DNA of 64,000 bases from Liolophura sinensis (lineage: Eukaryota; Mollusca; Polyplacophora; Chitonida; Chitonidae), in NCBI RefSeq assembly GCF_032854445.1, contig NC_088301.1, positions 9,482,281-9,546,280 of the forward strand, in the 5' to 3' direction. Position 1 is the stretch's first letter, and each line of letters opens with the position of its first letter. Positions 6,189 to 43,894 of the stretch are shown here, one piece after another. The notes beneath the pieces were generated by a model that was given only the letters and a program-made list of their open reading frames with translations, was not told the DNA's origin and ran no database searches. Both the position numbers and the translations under genes were made by a program.

Positions 6189-9100
6189 TTATGGCATTAA
6201 CCTGTTGATAACATTACTGACAGCATGTCTGTACTCCTCGAAGGCATTTTCTACAGCATACGCTTTACTGTACATAATGTTCAGCAGATCATGGATAGAA
6301 CCGTCTGAAAAACACATATATGGAACATTTTAGCCAAAAAGGCTTTTCACGATTTTAATAGGATTTCGTTTTCAAAATCTATAGAAAATGTGTAACAACA
6401 TTTTCAGATGGGCTCCTCAGAACTAGGCTCGTGAAGTCTATGCATGCTTCAATAATTCCGGTATGCACATTATGCATATATGTCAGATGTCAAATGCATT
6501 CTATCTTGCTCACAACCACCTAGTTTGATATAGATTTAATTTATAGTATAAGGCATGGTTTTATTGCACTAGAGTTACATAAACGGTGCAGCATTCTTGA
6601 CGTACTATGACTGATTAAGTGCTTAAAGGCTAAAGCTGCAAATAGGTAAAATTAAGAAACTGTTTAAAGAAAAAGAATAAATTGTCATGGACTGACGATG
6701 TAGAATGGACTTACTTGAGGGAGCAGCTGTCGTGGAGATCCACCCTGTTGTCGAGTAATTGAAAGAGGGTGTCGTGTTGTTCCACCAAGGTGTCGAGTAA
6801 TTGAAAGAGGGTGTCGTGTTGTTCCACCAAGGTGTCGAGTAATTGAAAGAGGGTGTCGTGTTGTTCCACCAAGGTGTCGAGTAATTGAAAGAGGGTGTCG
6901 TGTTGTTCCACCAAGGTGTCGAGTAATTGAAAGAGGGTGTCGTGTTGTTCCACCATGGTGTCGAGTAATTGAAGGAGGTTGTCGAGTAGTTCACAGCGGG
7001 TGTCAAACCGATGCTAATGTTGCTGTTCGGGCAGTTGGGAAGGTTACCTTGAGTGCTGTAGGCAATTTTACAGCCCCTGTCGTTGACACTACCATCAGTG
7101 TCAAAAATCACTTCTACTTTGCCGTTGGTCGACATCACTAAAACAAAGTCCCGGTGAAGCATCCGTACTATGTGAGTGTATTGATCTAATAGCTTGCATA
7201 TATTGCATATCTGTGCAAGACAAGGTAAGACAATAAGTCTTCCAACATTGCTGCGAAGTAGTTGCTAATAAAGTTTACCAATCAAGTTGATTGCCAAGAT
7301 ATCATAATTGTTTCTTTCCGCTTTTTTTCTTCAAAAGGAATTCTTATTTATCTTGTTCTTGGATTAAATTTCATGAATTCATGGAATTTACGCCATTAAA
7401 GATTCAATGCTTTGTAATGAAATATTAATGAATGCCATGCGTGATGCTTCGATTTGGCCCCCATGGCAGTTTAGCCAATTAGGTCGTTTGTTCTCATCCA
7501 GATTACCCAGTCTCGGCTATGTATTTAAAATACATCAGTACCTAGCAGCATATAGCGGTACGCTGCAGAAATTATTCGACGGCACATTGCCTTAAGTAAA
7601 AAACACTCAAATGACTCAGCTACTTATGTCTTGCAAATTCGAAATTTTCGTAGCTAAAACGGCAATGCATACCAGATCGATATCAGTGTGTAGCGTTTAC
7701 TAGGGGTTAACTCCAGGGATATTTTAGAAATTACTGCAATTTGAGAAATTTTACCAGGATATTTGCAATTAAGGTTTTAAAGGTCGCATTTCCAGTGTCC
7801 TCAGTAAGACAGTGCCTTGTTTACACATATGGATTTATGTATAACTTACAGGAAATCAACGACATTAACATTTGTTAATGCTCTTCCATGATGCCATAAG
7901 TGCATAGGTATATATCCACAGTGACAAGTACAGCATAAAAAATACTATACGTTAACACTTAACTCTCCTGAGAAAATGTCCCCCATCACCACCTCCAATT
8001 AGCACCCCTCACACTTTCATACCTGAAAACCTGCGGAAACTAACGTTGCCACAGTTCTTTGTTCCATTGTTACCAAAGCGAATGGAGTCGAAGGAGCAAA
8101 TGCTGTGATCCTCCAAGAAGCAGTCACAGGTGTAGAAATCCACATAAAACTGCGAGGAGAGGTTACTGGGTTGGATGGTGTACACACACGTTGTGTCATC
8201 ACCGTAGTTGCTGGGATAGTTGGGGGTGGATATAAACCCAGAGTTGGCCCAGAAGTCGAGGTTTCCACAGTTGCGATTTACTGTAAATAAGAACAATATT
8301 TCCAAGCGTTACGAAAAAACTGACATCGGTTCCACACAAGCAAAGAGACGAAGAGGTTGGCTTGAGTTTGCATAAATAAGAAAACCTATATTTATTTAGT
8401 TATTTATATATCTGGTTATCAAAAACATTTCACATATACCACAGCGGACAGCATTATGGATGAGAGGAATCCGGGCAGACCATCTATGGGTTGCTGCAGA
8501 CCTTTCCACGTACGACAGGAGAGGAAGTCAGCACGAGCTGGACCCCAACAGCACTGAATACAACTAATACAAGTTTAGCAAAGAAGAATTCATTGTTGGT
8601 TGACAGGATTTAATTTACCCGGATTTGAGATGTTAGCAATGTTTAAAGCTGCATCCTCGAGCAATGGAATAAAGAATTTTTAATTTTTTTTTTAATTTCT
8701 TACCTCCTCGCTTTGATACCTCGTTGGAATTTCGTGGCTTCATGGAAGGAAAAGACAAAAAGAAAGTAAATATTTCATTAACTTTCACGAACTTTGCATG
8801 AAAAAAATATATGCTGGAGAAAATGGAAAGGAATATAAAAAGTTTCAGCTGGAAATTCACGAAATTTACACGTTGTACAATTGTAATATTACGTGAGTGT
8901 TCCATTTAAAAAAATTTAAACCACAGTTTCGTGAAAATACATGCACTCTACAACATTCGCGTGGTTGAATAGTAGATGACACCAACATCCAACCTCAAAT
9001 AATTTACAGATTTGCAGGGGAAAAGAGGGACGGTTTCGTTAGATTTGATAAATGGGCCATTATTGGTATGAAGGGGAACGATAACACGAAAGAACTTAGT

Positions 9101-17600: not shown

Positions 17601-20600
17601 TACAAATTATTGTCATGTATACAAATCATTTGCATTTTATATTGCTAAATGGATTGTAATGATTTTATCAAAACTGTGCTCTCTTCATTTATCTCAGGGG
17701 CTTGGTGGCAGTAAGTTGCGTCTTGTGTGGTCTTGTATGAAGTTGGCAGTTCGGCTTTACCTACACGAACATTAACATTTCTTTCACTCATAAACATAAC
17801 CGCATATATACACATATATACGGCTTCTTGATCACGAATGAATGAATGATCTATGATGGCTTAAGGCTATACTTCATTAAACGCCAATCAAGTGAATGAA
17901 TAAAAGTATATTTTTTTGTAAACTCTCCAGCCCTGCTCTATGTTCAGGTGCAGACCCGTTCGGCTTTCCCACACTGATCAGACCGTGGGACGACGGGAGC
18001 AATACTATAGAGAACGCCAAGAGACGATTGAGAGCGGCATTTGAATTCTTCACCAAACTCGGTGTGAAGTACTGGGCCTTCCATGACCGGTGAGTACATA
18101 ATACTGACATTCCCTCTCACTTTATAATACCTTTGATTGAATGGTCTCCATTACAAGCATACATGTACCAGTGGTTGAAGGTTCTCCATTACAAGCATAC
18201 ATGTACCTCTGGTTGAAGGTTCTACATTACAAGCATACATGTACCAGTGATTGAAGGTTCTCCATTAAAAACATACATGTACCTGTGGTTGAGGGTTCTC
18301 CATTACAAACATACATGTACCTGTGGTTGAAGGTTCTACATTACAAGCATACATGTACCTGTGGTTGAGGGTTCTACATTACAAACATACATGTAACTGT
18401 GGTTGAGGGTTCTACATTACAGACATTACATGTACCTGTGGTTGAGGGTTCTACATTACAAGCATACATGTACCAGTGATTGAAGGTTCTGAATTACAAG
18501 CATACATACACAAAATATTATATTGACATCCCGCGTGAATAAAGGCTCTGCATTATAATTATAATTATAATTATACCATACTTACACCTTGTGTGGATGT
18601 TTAATCACGTCCTGTGTGTATTAAGTGTCTCCATTATAAGTATTGTTCTAAATTCAATTTATTCAGTATGTAATAGGTCTGAATTCAGTTCAACATACAT
18701 TTTCGATCATTCCGATCATTTGCACATGCATTTTGTATTATATATACCAGTAAATCCTGTAACAATGTATGTCGCATTTTTAAGGGTTGTATGAATGAAC
18801 ATAAGAAGAGCTTTCAAAACCGTTACATTTTTACTGGACATGAGCATATCGAAACGATTTAAATTTCTACTAATAACAAATTTCTGCGGTAGCACATTCG
18901 CACACAGGCTCTCATAGTAAGGGCATACAAAAAGTGTATCAAATTGATCTTCAACCAAACCAGAGAAACACATACGACAACATCTTGACTCCGGCAGGTA
19001 TTTCGAAACCTCCCAGAGTCTATTTCAAGGCCCGCTGTGCCCGCACGGAAGTTGGCAAAATGTTTTTTTTATACATGGCTAACGTGTGATCTGTTAGATA
19101 TGTTTTTTCGACTTTGTAATCACAGTAGCGGTCATTTCTGCTGCTCGAGCTGAGTGATGCAGACCATTCCTGTCTGTAAGTATCATGTAATCGTTCAAGA
19201 AAAGACCTAACATCTCCAATTCCCTGAGTCACCCCACACATATCCAAACCACAGGCGGGACAACATTCCCTAAACATAGGTAGCCCAATTAAGCTTCCCT
19301 TGCGAATCCAAATGAAGCAGAATGTAAGCCTTCTTTGGGTGTCTGTCTTCAGTATAGCTCACAACTCTTAACCAGAATTTAACATATTTACTGAGGCATT
19401 ACAAACCAGAGGAAATCGGCCACATTCGCGAAGAGTCATCAGGCTGGGGGTGCTTTTGCATGTATGTAAAAATTGCGTACACCCTCAATATTGAACTATT
19501 TCTAGCACCTCATACCCTTGGGATTCCCATAACCCGGAGCCGTACCTAAGTATAGGCAATATTTTGGCATCAAACAATTCAAAAAATATTGCCTATGACA
19601 TGTCACCAAGGTACCACGGTTCTACAGATTTACCCTGACTTAAGGAAGAAGTGAATGTCACCCCTAGATATTCATATGATGGTACGACTTCCATCTGGTC
19701 CCAAACCGCCATTTTTCAGTCTTACCCAACCTGCCACCTGTCCGGGCTACACCAACTTTTGATTTATCTGAATTAACAAAGAAACTCCATTTCTGACAAT
19801 AATCAGTGTGTCCAGTTGTTGTTGCAATGCTTTGGGAGAGATAAAAAAAGTGCTGTGTCATCTGCAAAAAGCAATGTAAATATATCAGTAAAGTCGGGGA
19901 ATAGCTGAACCTTATCTTTACCAAACTATAAGCAAATTATAAATGTGCTTTACTGATATCCTTTGTGATGAAAAGTCTAGAGTTGTTATTGCAGTCCCTC
20001 ACTAATTAAGTCATACCAGAGGTGACAATCGTCGTCTGACGTCCGTGGTAGGCCTATATTCTTCTCAATGTCTGTTGCGATATTGACCTGTATGATTGAC
20101 GGGTTACTATGTTATCAAAGAAAAAAGAATGAGCACAGGGTTAAACTCAGTGGTTCTAATCATCTATACATATGATTGTAGTTCTTTCTTCAGTTCGTCC
20201 ACGGAATCTTTTGAAGCGTTCAGGTGCCTTTCCAATTTTTACTGTGTGTTTTTTTCTACAGAGATGTGGCACCAGAGGGCGCTACACTTGAGGAATCGAA
20301 CAAAAACCTTGATGTCATCGTGGACTTGGCACAAGAGCTGCAAACGAAAACCGGGGTCAAATTGCTGTGGGCGACATGTAACCTTTTTGCTCACCCAAGG
20401 TAATTACAGCAACAAACTTCCAGTATATCGCTTTTTGCATCACTCCAGTTTAATATTTTGTTGCTCCATTACTCCATCGCCTATCTCCATTGTCCCATCA
20501 CTCCATCGCATTGCTCCATGGTTCTGTCGCATATAGCTTCAACCTTCTGCTGTATTCAGCATAACGAGGAAATGAAGCCAGGGTCCTTCTCAACCAACAT

Positions 20601-30045: not shown

Positions 30046-31033
30046 ATCAGTCAGTCTCCATACAGGCATTGACTTATTAAATGACGACTAAACCTTGTCA
30101 GTGGGCTCCTATAGCATTTTCTCATCAGACACCTCAGAAGTTTTGACACTATTTATCTAAATAAAGATTGCTAATATTAAATGTGGTTGTTTCTCAAGAA
30201 GGGCTGTGATCATTTTGACTTACATGTACTCTGACTGGCTAATATTGGCTCCATGATTCCAAATGTTTAGATTTTAAACTTTCTTTAATGAGTATGAGTG
30301 ATGAATCACTGGACACAAAATCCGCGCTGCACCATTTGGGGAAATCCAGACCAGCGTTCTAACCTAACATTGTACCTAACCTTGTTCTAGCCTAACACTG
30401 TACACATAAATCTAACATCTAACAGAAGTAGAAACTTTATAGGTTTAAGGAAACTTTCATCACAATTCTGAAAATTGGTGTTCAACTTCAAGTCTTTACA
30501 ACAAGTTAAGACAAACTCTGACTTCGGTCTAAAACTGAAAATTGGCGTTATTAAAGTCCAGATCTTAAGTAATACCGTAAGCTAAGACTAAATCTGACTG
30601 AAGTCGAAGAGCGTGGTGCCAAGGTGTATTCCATGCCTCCATGTTAACTTTCTGCACACAGCGAATTCAGATTGCTGTATAGACAATGAGGAACAAAAAG
30701 AAGTAGGCCAAGGGTCTAAGTGGTTTACATTTTCTTATGTAACATGCCACTGTGTATGGGTAGTTGTGCTGGTGATGCAAAGCGGCAAAGTAAAGAGGAA
30801 TATTAGGTGAGGAATAATTCACAATGTATTCATCAATAAGCATGGAATTAGGCATTCGTTTACCAATCGTCAACAAAACTGGGCGTTCCGAGTAAATTAT
30901 CGCAAGACCAATTTCCAAAAACAACTCCAAGCATTCTGCACTGGTACCGACATGCTCTTCGCTAATCACTATTTCCTGTACTTTATCAATCCTTTTGTTT
31001 GTTTACAGGTATTTGGGAGGAAACGAGAGTACG

Positions 31034-33718
31034 ATGTATTACAGTTGGAGGATTATCACTACCCTCGTGCTTTTCTTCGTTGTGGCTAACGAAAGTTCCC
31101 ATGTCTGTGCCCCCTGTGCATGTAACTTAACAAGTGGAACAATGGAATGTTTGAGCATGCCGTACTTAGTGCCACCACCACCCGGCATGAAAACTCTCGT
31201 CCTTCGTGACGTCGATTTTGGTACCTTCAAACACCCAAGCCTAAATAATTTAACTAGAGCTAACATCTCCGAGCTGACCTTTATAGGGTGTAATCTGGGG
31301 GCAATAAAACCTATGACTTTATTTTCGGGGCTAAGGCATCTGAAAAAGTTACGGCTGAACAGAACGACTATCATCCCCGAAAATTTACGCCTGGCGTTTT
31401 ATAGTCTGAGTAGCACAGAGATAAATGAGATTTACCTAGACGACATGGATATCGCTCCACTTCCGTGCCACGTTTTCGACGGGCTCAAGACATCCAGAAT
31501 CTTTCTAATATCACTCCGAGGAAACTCGATCCGGACCCTCCAGTTTTCTGATCATGCTGACATCTTTCAGGAAGTCCCGAGCTTACAGGCTCTTGTCCTT
31601 TCCGAGAACCAAATCGGCGCTGTTGAAGACAACACCTTCGCTGAACTCGTAGCTTTGCAACACTTGTTCCTGGACTTGAACAAAATCCGACGGTTGGAGC
31701 CGTCCGCCTTTAGGATTCCTTCTCTGGTCACGCTAAGCATCGCCGAGAACCACTTCAAGTTTTCCTCTCTAGAAGATACGAGTAAGCTGTTCAGTCACCT
31801 GAGTAAGCTCAAGGTACTCAATATCTCTGGAAACGATCTTAAAGGTGTAAATCCCCGAAATCTGGTTCTTTTGTTCAGGAATTTAACACTGGTAACAGTT
31901 TTGAAATTGGGTCACACCGGTTTGACTTTTCTACCTTCTGGCATATTTCGTGGCTTGAAGATGCTGAAGGAGATCTATCTGGAGGGAAACCAGTTAAAAT
32001 CTTGGCAACCTGAGACATTCCGAAGGCTGAATAATTTGGAGGCACTTTACTTGAACAAAAATAAAATTCAAACGGTAAGTCTTGATAAACTGTATTCCGT
32101 GGTGAACAGGACTCATACAGTCCATTTAAATCTGGCCAACAACCCATTCTCCTGTACCTGTCAAAACAGACATTTTCTCCAGTGGCTTAACCAAATTCAG
32201 CAAAAACCTGTTGGGTATCCGAATCTTTACAGATGCTCAAGTCCGTTTGAGCTCTTCCAGACGCCGCTCGACCAAGTCACCTTTAACAAACAGGGGTGCC
32301 AGAACCCTGAAGAGAGAGGGGAGGGAGGATTTCGGAAGAGAGGCCCTTGCTACCCATGCCAGTGTGACCCAACAACTCTAACCTGCAGTGGCACTGGTTT
32401 AGCCTACATTCCACGGCCACCCTCATCAGTGACGAAAGTTGTTTTCCATTCATTGCACTTCCATGTTCTAAACCAAGCGATCTTGAATAACCTTACGGAC
32501 AATGCCATCACTGATTTCAGTATAACGAACAGCACAATCATCGCACAGTCCAATGATACGTTTAGTCAGTTCTCCTTGAAAAGCCTCAGTCTGTCTGGCA
32601 CGCTGGTCACACCGGAAGTCATAAGGCAAGGCTTGAGCAGTTTGCAGGACAAAAATATTACAAGTCTTCATCTTGAGAACATGGAGTTGAGAGAACTCCC
32701 GTCAAACATGTTCGCTCATTTGAAAGGAATTATTCATTTAACCACGTTGTCGTTAGCCAATAATAAGCTGTCATCCGTACCCTCTGATGGAAATCTGTTT
32801 GTGACCTTAAGTCAATTGAGACATCTTGACCTTTCAAATAACTTGCTAAAGGCTTTAAGCAATAATTCTTTCAAAGGCTTGCTGTCTCTTTGTTATTTAA
32901 ATCTCGGCTCAAACCGCATTCAGGCAGTGGAACCTTATGTGTTCACCTTGAGTGCTCTGACGCACTTAAGGTTCGATAAGAACCGTTATGTCTTTTCTGC
33001 CGCCGATGTAGGCCACATGTTCCACAACGTAACCAGACTGCAGGTTCTAGACCTGTCCGGGAACAACTTGAGCGGCCTCAGTCCCACCATGACGGAAACC
33101 CTTCTAAAGCCCCTGGAGGAGCTCCACATCCTGTCTCTGGACAGCACCGGTCTAACTGATTTGCCGACTGGATTACTCGGCGACAAACCCGGCCTGCAAG
33201 TTCTAAGTGCATGTAACAACAGAATAACCGAAATAGTTCCCAGCTTCTTCACCAGACAGACGCACCTTAGCGCGTTGTATTTACGCGGAAACAAAATCTC
33301 CAAAATTTCCACAGACGTACTGGATATGTTGCGGGACAGCAACATCGAATATCTGAATTTAGCCAAAAATCCCATCGAGTGCTCTTGTCGCTCCAAGGAG
33401 TTCATGAGCTGGATTAACACTACGCATGTCACTCTAGTCGATTACCCAGAATCCTATATCTGTGCGACACCAAGCGGAGAGTATGGAAAACTGGTGTCCG
33501 ATTTTAGACAGGATACCTGCTCGAATTTACTACGTCATCGACTGAGTTACACCACCGCGATTGTTGTTGGCGTGGCATCTGGCATATCTGTTGTTTTGCT
33601 TGTAGCTGTTGTTATAGCCGTGTATTGTCAACGTAAAAAAATATGGTTGTCTACATTACGATTTAAGGCCCGTCTTCGCAGCCAGCGTATTGAAGCACTG
33701 ATCGAGGAGAGGATTTAG
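31034..33718 (+). CDS. TLR-like transmembrane receptor with two leucine-rich-repeat cassettes and no TIR domain (894 aa)
   Basis: One uninterrupted coding exon. I start at ATG 31034 because it opens a signal peptide (MYYSWRIITTLVLFFVVA) and an acceptor (tgtttacag) ends at 31008; the frame's earlier ATG at 30995 lies before that acceptor. Cassette 1: N-cap CAPCAC, LRRs of the LxxLxLxxNxL type, C-cap NPFSCTC..FLQWL from residue 370. Cassette 2: N-cap CYPCQC at 439, LRRs, C-cap NPIECSC..FMSWI at 779. A transmembrane segment follows (about 842-864), then a ~29-residue basic tail (RKKIWLSTLRFKARLR). The cassettes align with each other, so the ectodomain arose by internal duplication. Caps and transmembrane placement resemble Toll-like receptors, but no TIR follows, so signalling would need a partner. 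Likely cell-surface recognition or adhesion; ligand unknown. Confidence 0.95.
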   Translation: MYYSWRIITTLVLFFVVANESSHVCAPCACNLTSGTMECLSMPYLVPPPPGMKTLVLRDVDFGTFKHPSLNNLTRANISELTFIGCNLGAIKPMTLFSGLRHLKKLRLNRTTIIPENLRLAFYSLSSTEINEIYLDDMDIAPLPCHVFDGLKTSRIFLISLRGNSIRTLQFSDHADIFQEVPSLQALVLSENQIGAVEDNTFAELVALQHLFLDLNKIRRLEPSAFRIPSLVTLSIAENHFKFSSLEDTSKLFSHLSKLKVLNISGNDLKGVNPRNLVLLFRNLTLVTVLKLGHTGLTFLPSGIFRGLKMLKEIYLEGNQLKSWQPETFRRLNNLEALYLNKNKIQTVSLDKLYSVVNRTHTVHLNLANNPFSCTCQNRHFLQWLNQIQQKPVGYPNLYRCSSPFELFQTPLDQVTFNKQGCQNPEERGEGGFRKRGPCYPCQCDPTTLTCSGTGLAYIPRPPSSVTKVVFHSLHFHVLNQAILNNLTDNAITDFSITNSTIIAQSNDTFSQFSLKSLSLSGTLVTPEVIRQGLSSLQDKNITSLHLENMELRELPSNMFAHLKGIIHLTTLSLANNKLSSVPSDGNLFVTLSQLRHLDLSNNLLKALSNNSFKGLLSLCYLNLGSNRIQAVEPYVFTLSALTHLRFDKNRYVFSAADVGHMFHNVTRLQVLDLSGNNLSGLSPTMTETLLKPLEELHILSLDSTGLTDLPTGLLGDKPGLQVLSACNNRITEIVPSFFTRQTHLSALYLRGNKISKISTDVLDMLRDSNIEYLNLAKNPIECSCRSKEFMSWINTTHVTLVDYPESYICATPSGEYGKLVSDFRQDTCSNLLRHRLSYTTAIVVGVASGISVVLLVAVVIAVYCQRKKIWLSTLRFKARLRSQRIEALIEERI

Positions 33719-33739
33719 ACACTCAGCAATGATTATTTG

Positions 33740-33902
33740 ACATCTGGTATATCTGTTGTTTTGCTTGTATCTGTTGTCATTAATTAATGATTAATGTCCA
33801 CGTAAACCAATATGGTTGTGTACATTACAATTTAAGACCCGTCTTTGCAGCCAGCCCATTGAAGAACTGATCGAGGAGAGGATTTATACACACAACAATG
33901 AT
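33740..33902 (+). pseudogene. Decayed tandem duplicate of the LRR gene's transmembrane/tail segment
   Basis: From 'catctggtatatctgttgtt' the sequence repeats 33576-33734 with scattered substitutions and small indels (offset 165 growing to 169 bp). It covers the second half of the transmembrane codons, the basic tail and the region around the stop ('gaactgatcgaggagaggat'). The copy has lost the reading frame (taattaatga inside), and its stop position reads TTATAC instead of TTTAG. It lies in the presumed 3' UTR. Confidence 0.88.
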
Positions 33903-37900: not shown

Positions 37901-40900
37901 AGGATATCCTAAAGAGGATAGTCGTGTAACTGAACATTTTACAAGATCAGGATAAAAACAACATGCACAGGAGGCTATGGGGAAATCCCATCGGCTCACC
38001 CCACACAGCATGGCTTGTATAATGTGCTCAAACGTTTTCCTGAACTTAATATAAATATATTATTGAAAACCAATAATACAAACAGATTGCCTCTTACAAC
38101 ATCGTTTTGAACAGCTAAATGGATTGCATTGGTGTATTGGAAAGCTTTTAACCACCAGACACCAGGTAACACAAGGCAGGCGAGGTTCTAAAGATGCTTG
38201 AAGAACTCAACTTTATAAAGAGTGTTATAAAATCCTAACTGGGACAATGTTGAGGGACAATGTTCAACCAGCAGAGAACTTCAGAAGCATATAAAATAAG
38301 AAATAGTCATGCAAAAGAGTACTAATCAGTATCATTCAAACTTGCCTAAAGACATAGAGAATGTTCTAGGCGCGTAAATTTATTGGCGCGTGAACTTTAT
38401 CGTCAAATCGTGTTCCTTGCCGGTTTGTAAGACGTTGTTAATCACAAATATGTCTCTTAGTTGCCCTGTGATCGAAATGCTCAGACATCCAAAGCGGCGA
38501 CTTTAATATTTTTTTAACATTTTTAACATTATCGTCAGACTGTAGCTCCAGTTTCAGCGGAATTTAAAACAATTACGAAGCAGACTAATTAGATATTCCA
38601 GGCACTCCAACCACATTTACCCTTATTTTGACAAAATTATACTCAATATAAAATTTAATAAACGTTGAATGAACATAGGTCTCGGGACACACATTCGCAT
38701 TTACTCCCAATTAAAGAAAATTAGGGTAAAAGAAATCGATGGAAATATTTGAGAAGAAATTTAGAGAGAATCCAGGCGTCGAAACAAATGAATCTCGTGA
38801 TTAGAACAACGTTTAACATAAACCATCAAAGATCAAAGAGAGTATATTAAGAATAATTCTAGACCAGTGACGTGTAATACATTGCTTCTAACAAGACTGC
38901 AGTTTATCACTCAATTCTGTTTGAGCTATGATGTCTGATGGCGTGTATGTTGCTACTGTTTAAGGTATGATGTCTGATGGCGTGTATCTTGCTACTGTTT
39001 AAACTATGATGTCTGGGGGCGTGTGTGTTGCTACTGTTTAAGCTATGATGTCTGGGGGCGTGTGTGTTGCTACTGTTTAAGCTATGATGCCTGGGGGGGG
39101 GGGGGGGGTGTTGCTACTGTTTAAGCTATGATGTCTGGGGGCGTGTGTGTTGCTACTGTCTAAGCTATGATGTCTGGGGGCGTGTGCGTTGCTACTGTTT
39201 AAGCTATTATGTCTGAGGGCGTGTGTGTTGCTACTGTCTAAGCTATGATGTCTGAGGGCGTGTGTGTTGCTACTGTGTAAGCTATGATGTCTGAGGGCGT
39301 ATGTGTTGCTACTGTCTAAGCTATGATGTCTGAGGGCGTGTGTGTTGCTACTGTCTAAGCTATGATGTCTGGGGGCGTGTGTGTTGCTACTGTCTAAGCT
39401 ATGATGTCTGGGGGCGTGTGTGCTGCTACTGTTTAAGCTATGATGTCTGAGGGCGTGTGTGTTGCTACTGTCTAAGCTATGATGTCTGAGGGCGTGTGTG
39501 TTGCTACTGTCTAAGTTATGATGTCTGAGGGCGTGTGTGTTGCTACTGGCTAAGGTATGATGTCTGGAGGAGTGTGTGTTGCTACTGTTTAAACATGTAC
39601 ATGAACAGTCCGAATGAAATCCTGACAGTGGTAAATTGACAACAGATGGGATTTCACCCCTGATACGTTTACTTATTCGCCAATTATCACACCAATTATT
39701 ACTCTGGTTTTACTCTCTGTGCGGTAGTATTTTACACTTAATGGCATATCCCCGGTAATACCTTTTTCCGTTTTGCCAGCACACGTGTACATTCCTGATT
39801 GACGAACTCCCACCAGTCGATCGCGCCGTTCCTATCAGCGTCCATCAGTTGGTACATCAGCCGATGACGCCTCAGCTCATGCTCAGGTATGGGCTCCTGT
39901 TCCTCTTCCTCGTACACACGTGACTTGTACTTCAGGTACTCCTCCTTACTGATGACAGCATCTACAAGAGACACACACATCGTAAAGTCCCAGACTTGGC
40001 TGTTTCAAAACATCGGCCTGAAACAGCCGCGCTTCGCCATGAGAGAAGAAAAGGCTGACTGGAATCGATGCCTTGGCTCTGGACCCCAAGTAACAAATTT
40101 ATAATGGTCTGGACGACACATCTGGGTGCATGCCGTCGTTATTGAGAGGTAGGTAGTTTTTGCATATGAATCAAACACCCGGAGACACGACTTAGTGAGA
40201 ACTATTGAACACAGACTCATATTGTGTAAGACTAGACCTATACACTATTTCAGCAAAGTTGCCTTCACGTCTAACAAAGATACACACACTTCTCGTACAC
40301 TGTTTCAGCACAGTTGCCTCGTCGTCTATAATAACGATACACACACTACTCGTACACTATTTCAGCACATTTGCCTCAGCGTGTAGTTGCCTCGACGTCT
40401 AACAAAGCCAAATATATTACTTGCACTCTACTTTACACATATAACTTCTAATCTACTCCAGCGTAGCTGTCCATCGTATAGCAAGGATACACACACTAGT
40501 TGTAAACTACTTCAGCAAATTTGTCCCAGTGCCCAACAAACATGTATGACTTACGTCAGGTAATAGATACCGTTTAGGCCTGTACGGCTACAATTTACAA
40601 GTATTCACATATGCACATTCTACAGTGCGCATATCATCTGTTATTTGATCAAATGTCTACGGGACGTCATTCTCAACGTACCTTTTAACGACCACAATGA
40701 TTGCATTTTATTCCTTTTCCAGAATTTCTAAGATTTTTACTGTTTGCACTAATATACAGACCTAAAAGTGAAAGGCAACAAAATGCTTCCTTGTTTTTTT
40801 ATTTTTGATTGAGAATATCATATAAAATAACACAGTATATCAAAGAACAGCTTACCTCCGTTGATGTCTCGCTTATCAAACTCTTCAATCATAATTCTTG

Positions 40901-43894
40901 TTTCTTCATTTGTGAGAAGTGTCGTCAGATCACCCTGACAACAACCACAATAAAAGAGTAATATTAGACCGGGCTTTAAGTAGGCAGAACAAAGTGAGCC
41001 GGAAAACCTTCAGATTCCCGGAAAACAATTTTTAATCGTCAGTAAACCGCTAACGTATTCACTGTTCACGATCAAACTACCGACCACACCCAGTGGTACT
41101 GTTAATAAAATCGGCCGAGGATTGCTGGGCATCAGTCAAATATAAGGAGCTGCTTTTTTTTTTCTTTTGCTAATCTTGTACTCGGGTAGTATTACAAAGA
41201 ACGTTGTGATTTCTCCCTCGACCGGTTACAAAGAATGAATGAATGAATGTTTGGGGTGTAACGTCGTGCTTAGCAATTTATTTCAGCCATATGACGACTG
41301 GGTATCATTAGGTGTGTGTATGTATACTGTGTCCCCTTGCGGCAGAGCGAGTCCATGCCGCCGAAGTTCTGCCGCCACTGAAGTATCATGCTGAAGACAC
41401 CAGTCATCACACCCAACCCAGTCACATTATACTGCCACCGAGCCAGTCAGTCCCGTTTCCTTGCTCTAACCTCTCCGTGCTGAGCGACAAGCGAGGCAGT
41501 AAGTACCATTTTTGAAGCCTTTGGTATATCCTTGGTTTGATCCCGGGTGTCTCAACTTCGAGGCAGACACTCAAATATTAGGCCACCTAAGCGGTCCAGT
41601 TATGAAGTCATACAACTTCTATAAGCACGCCGATAAGCTGACTGGATGTATACATATACGTGTGGGGGTAACTAATTTCCTTGGGTAGCATGTCAGTAAG
41701 AAATAGCTTCATGGAATAGGTCTCGAAGACGGGACGTGGAAAAGGCCATTGGGATTGGACGTTGTCCAAACTTTGATACTCACACATCTGTAGCAGCTCC
41801 AGCCTGTGATACAATGGGCTCTCTCCATCATGTCCAGGTCACCGGCTCTACAGCCATCGTACTGCTCCAGACAATCCTTGTGGAAGATGCGGGTACACAC
41901 CCGGCAAGGGTATCCACTGATCAGGAACGGGATGGTCTCATCGCACAAATAACACGCAGCGTCAGACTCCACCTTTATTTGCACCTATCAACATTAACAC
42001 GTAACACACAACGTTAGAATCCACCTTGGCTTGCAGCTGTCAACTTCAGCAAGAAACAGTAGCACGCTGCATCAGACTCCACCTTTGCCTGCACCTATCA
42101 ATATTTACAAGTAACAATCTGCGTCAGGCTGCACCTTTATTTGCACACATCAAAATTAACAAGTAACACGCTGCGTCAGACTACGCCTTTACATGCACCT
42201 GCCAACAATAACAACACACAGCGTTATATTCCACCATTACACTTACGTGTACTTCTATCAACACTAAAAGGTAACACGCCGTGTAGACGCCACGTTTATC
42301 TGCACCTAACAACATTAACAAATAAGACTCTGTATTAGACTCCATGTTTATATGCACCTATCAACATTAACAAGTAACACTCTATATTAGGCTCCATGTT
42401 TACCTGCACCTATCAACATTAACAAGTAACACTCTGCATTACATTCCCCCTTTACATACACCTGTCAACATTTATAAGCAACAATGTGCGTCAGGTTTCA
42501 CCTTTACTTGCACCTATCAACATTAAGAAGTAATACGCTGCGTCAGACTTCACCTTTGCTAATCAACATTAACAACACGCAGCGTCATATTCCACCAATA
42601 TATTCCATTATACTTCTATCAACATTAACAAGTAACACGTTGCATCAGACTCCAACTTTACCTGCACCTATAAACATTAACAAGTAAAGTGTAGTGTCAG
42701 ACAGACACCTCCTTTCCTTGCACCTATCAACATTAACAAACAACACGTTGCACCTGACTCCACCTTTACCTGCAGTTATATTTATAAGCAACATGATATG
42801 TCAAACAACACCTTTACTTGCACCTATCAATATTAACAAGACTCCACCTTTACCCGCATCTACAAACATTAACAAGTAACACTGCATCATTAACAAGCAG
42901 ACTCAGATTTCATCTTTACTTTCACCTATCAACATTAACAAGTAACACGTTGCATCAGACTTCACCTTTACATGTACCTATTGACACTAACAAGTAACGC
43001 AGAGTCTCAGACAGGTACTAACTGTGTATTGGACATGACTGAATGGCCAAGGCTTTACATCACAGGCACATTGTAATGATATTCAATATGAATATCAATC
43101 AATCATGTTTCCACACGGCTCTGTCCGGATTTCTGCCACTACAACGCTAACCGCCGTCGTATAAGTGAAATATTATTGAGTGCGACGTAAAACACCAAAC
43201 AAATAAAGAAATCAATCAATAAATAACTATATAAAACAAGCGTATGTTCCCGCAGCTGTTGTCGAACTTCTATCCACCTGGAAAGACATCTCACCCAACA
43301 CTGAAAGCAATACATTCCGGATTTGTTTTCACGAAATATTTTTAGCAAACGAAAGTAGTTTCAATGTGCAAATAAAAGTTTTTATTCATATTCGTAGACC
43401 TACATTTGGGTTCCGGTTGAAATTTATTCATGTGTGGGTGAAAATAATCCTATACACTTGGATAGGATAGACATTTGTCAATAAAAAAAAGAGCATAATT
43501 AAAAACACATCTAATATGAACTTCATCATCACATGAAGAACATAAAGCTCTCCAAGCACACAGCTTAGGTTCCATGCATATTTCAAACCTTTCTCCAGTC
43601 AGCTTCTCTGGACTCAGTAGTAGATCGCCGAACTCCGGCAGTTTTCGGTCGTATCCGGAACCTATCCACCGAAGTTTCTTCCATGTCCAAAGCACTGTCC
43701 AGTTCATTTCTCTCTTTTCTTTGTTCACACAGAAAGTCTATTAATTCTTGACGGCTATACTTATGTATTTCGTGATTTGCAGAATGTTTTCCGAAATTTC
43801 CAACGGCTACGGTTTTCACTTTTATGCAATTATTTCTTTCTTTCAAGCTGCCGTCTGCTTGATCAATCTGCGACGACGACGCACCATTTCCCAT
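34986..43894 (-). CDS. PHF24: PHF24/GINIP-like protein: myristoylation motif, PHD finger, four EF-hand loops (433 aa, 7 exons)
   Basis: Exons (minus): 43894-43589, 41984-41784, 40934-40856, 39961-39762, 37429-37278, 36126-36037, 35259-34986; phases close (1302 nt). The N-terminus MGNGASSS fits N-myristoylation. Residues 113-169 form a C4HC3 PHD finger (C113, C116, C129, C132, H137, C140, C166, C169), with PCRVCTR.FH and GWSC as in vertebrate PHF24. EF-hand loops: 192-203 (DINGDAVISKEE), 236-247 (DADRNGAIDWWE), 285-296 (DDNEDGVIEFEA, last position Ala), 338-349 (DVNKSGTLSWEE). FKNEQALYVLSNRPN matches the vertebrate C-terminal FLQENVLYILAARPN. Vertebrate PHF24 (GINIP, ~400 aa) binds inhibitory G-alpha in neurons. 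Here membrane-attached calcium sensing is inferred. The exon 2 start could instead be 41972, which removes four residues. Confidence 0.93.
36787..36960 (-). mobile_element. SINE family A copy in PHF24-like intron 5
   Basis: (attt)n tail, 'caagaatttttcacatatat', 'gacgacggccaccataatcg', 'accgggcagaacccgacgga' and 'acccacgaccatccgcagga'. Truncated before the tRNA head. Confidence 0.85.
38928..39590 (+). repeat. 39-bp minisatellite, about 17 units, in PHF24-like intron 4
   Basis: Unit 'tgtctaagctatgatgtctg' plus 'agggcgtgtgtgttgctac'. Units differ at a few fixed positions (tgtttaag/tgtctaag, gggggc/gagggc), so there are at least two interleaved variant classes. One unit carries a run of 13 G near 39093. 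No spacers, so not a CRISPR array. Confidence 0.96.
39597..39730 (+). repeat. Dispersed repeat family D, copy 3
   Basis: 'acatgaacagtccgaatgaa', 'ggtaaattgacaacagatgg' and 'ctggttttactctctgtgcg' match 540-700 in order and orientation. It sits directly after the 39-bp minisatellite and 30 bp before exon 4 of the PHF24-like gene ends. Confidence 0.55.
41223..41600 (-). mobile_element. SINE family B copy in PHF24-like intron 2
   Basis: Left: (aatg)n then 'tttggggtgtaacgtcgtgc' and 'tcagccatatgacgactggg' (tail side). Right, read on the minus strand: 'gaccgcttaggtggcctaat' and 'gagacacccgggatcaaacc' (tRNA-like A and B box sides). Same block order as 53876-54236. Confidence 0.85.
41960..43012 (-). 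repeat. ~52-bp tandem array, about 20 diverged units, derived from the splice acceptor of PHF24-like exon 2
   Basis: Plus-strand unit 'cacctttacctgcacctatc', 'aacattaacaagtaacacgc', 'tgcgtcagactc'. On the minus strand each unit reads as a branch-point-like tgttaat, then gttgatag|gtgca..., then ggtggagtctgacgcagcgt. The last unit overlaps the first ~40 nt of real exon 2, where the same bases encode VESDAACYL. The array fills most of intron 1. Units are diverged, some partly deleted. Confidence 0.92.
43105..43232 (+). mobile_element. SINE family A 3' fragment in PHF24-like intron 1
   Basis: 'acacggctctgtccggattt', 'cgctaaccgccgtcgtataa', 'gtgcgacgtaaaacaccaaa', then (aata)n. The 5' half is missing. 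Confidence 0.85.

Follow-up and report, generated by a model that had tools for sequence, protein, structure and literature searches.

Tandem repeats across splice junctions in the chiton Liolophura sinensis: a candidate mirage minisatellite in a PHF24-like gene and junction arrays at other sampled exons

Tandem arrays whose repeat unit includes both exon sequence and a splice site recur at several sampled junctions of the genome of the chiton Liolophura sinensis, and this recurrence is what is new here. The array described most fully below lies in a stretch of 64,000 nucleotides (the window, to which coordinates refer unless a locus or contig is named; NC_088301.1, positions 9,482,281 to 9,546,280), where about 20 units of 52 bp lead into exon 2 of a PHF24/KIAA1045-like gene. 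It is quite probably a “mirage” minisatellite that grew from a duplicated intron 1/exon 2 junction and is carried as passenger DNA that splicing passes over. Boundary-spanning tandem repeats were named mirages in the amphioxus Adh3 gene, with later cases in globin, troponin C, and PGBD5 genes; they occur at 5' or 3' splice sites, reportedly leave normal splicing undisturbed, vary in number of copies from haplotype to haplotype, and are a possible source of introns (PMC3087553, PMC3902484). Our search of the open-access literature, with subscription papers outside its scope, found no report of mirages in molluscs. The chiton genome first appeared under the name Liolophura japonica, since corrected to L. 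sinensis (PMC11068029; PMC12441733).

The PHF24-like gene lies on the minus strand, from about 43894 to about 35100. Its predicted first coding exon (43589 to 43894, MGNGASSS...EADWRK) is of uncertain end and closes in phase 0 at a weak donor, AGAAAG|GTTTGA. Exon 2 is the zinc-finger exon; in a profile search it matches PF16744, “KIAA1045 RING finger”, with 44.8 bits against a cut-off of 30.8, and it ends at the donor AGATGT|GTGAGT. Downstream, the region of exons 3 and 4 (GDLTTLLTNEET..., DAVISKEEYLKYK...) spans 39741 to 40934 on the minus strand; the exons that follow exon 2 lie near 40934, 39961, 37430, 36110, and 35250. A paralogue with a homologous exon (VNDDLCSIC...) is found at locus L002 (C7:1121577-1121774). 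Because it fits PF16744 better than the window gene in the same genome search (67.3 versus 46 bits), the window gene may be the divergent paralogue rather than the orthologue of vertebrate PHF24. No junction array was found at the homologous exon of L002.

TRF detected a 52-bp period at 41945-42774 and at 42902-43012. Wrap-around alignment joins both blocks into a single minus-strand array that runs from 43012 to 41945 with the consensus GTTAATGTTGATAGGTGCAAGTAAAGGTGGAGTCTGACGCAGCGTGTTACTT. The intronic part (41999 to 43012) comprises a 21-bp partial unit and 19 full internal units, aligned as degenerate copies of the intron 1/exon 2 junction, and is followed by a terminal exon unit at 41998-41947. 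An earlier note on this DNA had described about 20 copies of a unit of about 52 bp leading into exon 2, and both methods bear this out; the array is present in the span that it gave (41960-43012) but reaches 15 bp deeper into the exon.

The repeat unit straddles a single splice junction, with sequence from both intron and exon. In the terminal unit this comprises a branch-point-like TGTTAAT, the motifs GATAG and AAAG, and the first exon codons. This unit agrees with the consensus at 49 of 52 positions, where the best of 100,000 shuffles reached 29; for the exonic half alone the values are 24/26 and 19. It is continuous with the authentic exon, since exon 2 runs on from 41946 into the PF16744 zinc finger, and the codon for the first zinc-ligand cysteine lies inside the unit. 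The reading of the final unit as the real exon border, with the first cysteine on its exon side, is thus supported.

Only three departures from the consensus are found in the terminal unit: CAAGTAAAG to CAAATAAAG, GCA to GCT, and TAC to TAT. The last two are its only exonic changes and both are synonymous (probability about 0.05 by chance). The other units carry a mean of 8.7 substitutions per 52 bp (about 83% identity to the consensus) as well as indels, and share no common reading frame. The terminal unit is the closest of all to the consensus (3/52 versus the mean of 8.7, Poisson P of about 0.03); each of these two constraint tests is marginally significant on its own. Translation of the exonic half gives VESDAACY in the terminal unit and variously broken versions in most others. 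Divergence in the decoy units is 0.20 in the exonic half versus 0.12 in the other half; this is not read as selection, as the excess falls largely in a CpG-rich GACGCAGCG stretch. A whole-genome DNA search with the array returned only the array itself and no second copy, and a dispersed-repeat origin of the 52-bp unit was rejected on this basis.

Splice sites were scored with a position-weight matrix built from 61 acceptors and 55 donors of the same genome, chosen by an automatic procedure next to kinesin and ligand-gated channel exons. Two acceptors could open exon 2, and the choice between them is ambiguous from the sequence. GATAG|GTGCAA at 41984 scores 6.8, which is close to the lower quartile, and AAAG|GTGGAG at 41972 scores 0.1, below the bottom decile. 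The branch-like TTAAT would be 9 nt away from the AG at 41984 and 21 nt away from that at 41972. The L002 acceptor, which scores 3.7, aligns with the site at 41972 (CAG|ATT GTT AAC GAC GAT CTG TGT in L002, AAAG|GTG GAG TCT GAC GCT GCG TGT in the window). The two sites are 12 nt apart and both are in frame, giving an exon of 201 nt (41784 to 41984) or 189 nt (41784-41972). Each unit does carry the acceptor region, as had been proposed, and its share of coding bases, put at about 30, becomes 38 with GATAG or 26 with AAAG. The pairing of exon 1 with exon 2 is tentative, because the exon 1 donor scores only 2.5.

The unit-by-unit scoring of splice sites that the earlier note had proposed was run, and about 13 upstream acceptors equal or exceed the score of the real one. 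Acceptor strength alone is therefore insufficient for the correct choice. The top decoys score 13.0 at 42198, 11.6 at 42661, and 11.0 at 42403, and CAG|GTAAA, an acceptor followed directly by a donor, occurs in three units. Such values would fit repeated acceptors that are functional or disruptive, acting as alternative acceptors or 6-nt micro-exons and leading to isoforms or regulated nonsense-mediated decay. We regard this as unlikely, because the units lack a common frame and stop codons interrupt every readthrough tested: all 15 upstream acceptors tested, read in phase 0 into exon 2, terminate after 5-58 codons, whereas the two genuine candidates stay open. The exact TTTACCTGCACC occurs just twice. 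The AG of the two candidate acceptors is kept in 16/18 and 16/19 decoy units, like neighbouring columns, so the decoy sites have no extra conservation; compared with these columns, neither purging nor preservation of the decoy AGs was apparent, and selection against decoys was rejected because their AG columns had diverged no more than their neighbours. Amphioxus mirages, moreover, splice normally. The statement that “many” units contain CAG|GTAAAG was overstated, and the suggestion that decoys alter splicing or produce isoforms is unsupported by the neutral AG columns, the stops within 58 codons, and the amphioxus equivalents. The micro-exon idea keeps a weak lead in the three units with CAG|GTAAA.

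The same AG|GT units could also serve as ratchet points for recursive splicing, in which the intron would be removed stepwise and the mature mRNA would bear no trace. The strongest candidate, GTGCAG|GTAAAG (42656 to 42668, minus strand, junction at 42661/42662), combines an acceptor score of 11.6 with a donor score of 8.0, and GTGCAG|GTAAAC at 42403/42404 is similar in scoring jointly high for both. Known ratchet points serve long introns, whereas the intron here measures about 1.6 kb, and only a few degenerate units have the motif; recursive splicing is very doubtful here.

As to the order of events, exon first and array second appears by far the likelier, in line with the earlier proposal that the exon seeded the array. 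VESDAAC is conserved, the terminal unit is little diverged, its exonic changes are silent, and the exon of the paralogue is free of an array. The reverse order, in which a repeat unit gave rise to the start of exon 2 by exonisation or gene conversion, draws on the proximity of the terminal unit to the consensus, an outcome that conversion by the array could also give. It is highly improbable given that the exon-side residues, the first cysteine included, align with both the paralogue and the Pfam profile, and that the exonic changes are silent. Misassembly is possible for tandem arrays, but the PacBio HiFi reads average 8.3 kb (PMC11068029), longer than the 1.07-kb array, and the diverged units are individually distinguishable, which leaves an assembly or sequencing artefact a negligible chance.

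For the preferred reading, a mirage minisatellite that is spliced past, the following course is proposed. A 52-bp segment made up of the last bases of intron 1 and the first bases of exon 2 would have been duplicated in tandem, probably via slippage or microhomology at TTGT, and unequal exchange of one or several units could then have raised the copy number to about 20 as the array grew into the intron. Coding and splicing constraint would have persisted only on the terminal copy, which is joined to the intact exon; the remaining copies would have become intron, and their divergence indicates that they drift. Exon 1 is most likely spliced to the terminal copy, since no other copy leads into a full exon that is free of stops and has a donor about 200 nt further on. 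The right acceptor is probably chosen by exon definition. By analogy with amphioxus, splicing is expected to ignore the extra copies, and the array would be passenger DNA that the gene tolerates, perhaps with mis-splicing at a low rate; its consequence for splicing is probably minor.

Judged by its unit, its terminal copy, and its kept splice signals, the PHF24-like array is best filed as a mirage minisatellite. As in amphioxus Adh3, TnC, BflGb6/BflGb9, and PGBD5, the units cross the exon/intron boundary, the terminal unit is the real junction, and many units retain AG or GT signals; published unit lengths are 10-160 bp (PMC3087553, PMC3902484). The chiton array differs in being hosted by a mollusc and not a cephalochordate, in having about 20 units versus 3-6 in BflGb6, and in its far more diverged units (about 83% identity to the consensus versus 81-100% pairwise in BflGb6). 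Normal splicing is reported for amphioxus and expected for the chiton array. The 31-bp VNTR of human CBS, c.1444_1467+7(16_21), is comparable in that its unit, by its coordinates, runs from the end of an exon 7 bases into the following intron and is present in 16-21 copies; however, it is a donor-side repeat and a human polymorphism. CBS 844ins68 is similar but consists of a single extra copy, and is a human polymorphism with transcript data. Minisatellite expansion at exon-intron borders is also described for internal tandem repeats in human segmental duplications (PMC2812944), where new introns or alternative splicing are possible in recent primate paralogues; the chiton array gives no such sign. 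Tandem duplication of AG|GT as a route to intron gain (Rogers 1989 and later work, cited in PMC3087553) likewise places adjacent AG and GT in tandem copies. In contrast to that model, as it is relayed there, the chiton array is intronic, precedes a conserved exon, and gives no sign of a new intron.

Exons with their flanks from three families, together with 40 further short regions, were sampled elsewhere in the genome, and an array was counted as a junction array only if its unit contained exon sequence and a splice site. Coordinates from a fourth family supplied 20 short regions. Among 70 kinesin and ligand-gated channel exons, five had such arrays. With two junctions per exon this is 5/140, or 3.6% (95% interval 1.2-8.1%), a figure for two gene families and not a genome-wide estimate. 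At a kinesin acceptor, TTGTACAG|GAAGCCATGTCCATC..., a 64-bp unit is repeated 11.8 times with 89% matches in the upstream intron (L056:773-1529; C8, near 682171). At a kinesin donor, ...CTCATGTTTGGACAGAG|GTAAGATAG, a 73-bp unit extends into the downstream intron (L069:1605-3168; C11, near 27412983) with at least 21.6 copies, as the array reaches the end of the locus sequence examined. A second kinesin donor, ...GGGCCAGTTACAG|GTAACG, has four copies of 125 bp (L051:935-1428; C6, near 81506676); its decoy donors are dead, because they read CAG|GGAATG where the genuine copy reads CAG|GTAACG. The other two are also donors, ...AACATTGGAATACG|GTAAGG with 6.7 copies of 34 bp (L084) and ...GCTGTCACTAACAG|GTAACC with four copies of about 61 bp (L116). 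A half-mirage at a ligand-gated channel exon (L119, C5:2489999-2490561), in which the region of branch point and AG recurs in five 45-bp units, was left out of the count because its unit lacks exon sequence. Arrays at five further loci of the kinesin and receptor samples (L052, L067, L080, L099, and L115) were excluded as purely intronic. No junction array was found in 41 kinase and sugar-transporter loci, although many of these consist of long open frames and contain few introns.

In the sampled kinesin loci, minisatellite arrays make up about 16% of the sequence, with some double counting where loci overlap. Random placement at that density would yield 1.5 junction arrays, against the five seen (P of about 0.02). 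This value is too weak, and too dependent on the families chosen, and a preference of arrays for junctions was not accepted. Since 1.5 junction arrays are expected from density alone, a high minisatellite birth rate may be nearly sufficient to account for them. The sample, though small, suggests that mirages are common in the genome of this mollusc. We lean towards a genome-wide mirage load in chiton introns, in which several per cent of junctions would have been copied in tandem into the adjacent intron and, in a natural experiment spread over very many genes, up to about 20 near-identical sites would compete, with the right one still found.

Other repeats and open frames are present in the window. 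A 39-bp array of 17 copies (38917-39592) sits further along the PHF24-like gene, in one of its later introns, and a long minus-strand open frame runs through it (HHSLNSSNTHAPR repeats). A 38-bp array (18128-18507; 10 copies, 89%) starts about 38 nt past a xylose-isomerase-like exon (...KYWAFHDR), near its donor and not across it. Both were rejected as junction arrays, as they lie near exons and straddle none. A 42-bp array at 6728-6992 (95% matches) keeps the frame of the 213-aa minus-strand open frame that contains it (NTTPSFNYSTPWW repeats) and could be a coding repeat. In addition, the 3' end of a 940-aa plus-strand open frame (30896-33715) overlaps a 169-bp tandem duplication (33576-33902).

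The direct consequence of the lone PHF24-like array is probably small, and the recurrence of such arrays at several sampled junctions is a more interesting result than its effect on splicing. Mirages have so far been reported mainly in amphioxus genes. They are a plausible source of new introns and isoforms, and they pose a risk to automatic gene annotation. Should they be as frequent in chitons as this sample implies, these genomes would offer many natural tests of how the spliceosome chooses among near-identical neighbouring sites.
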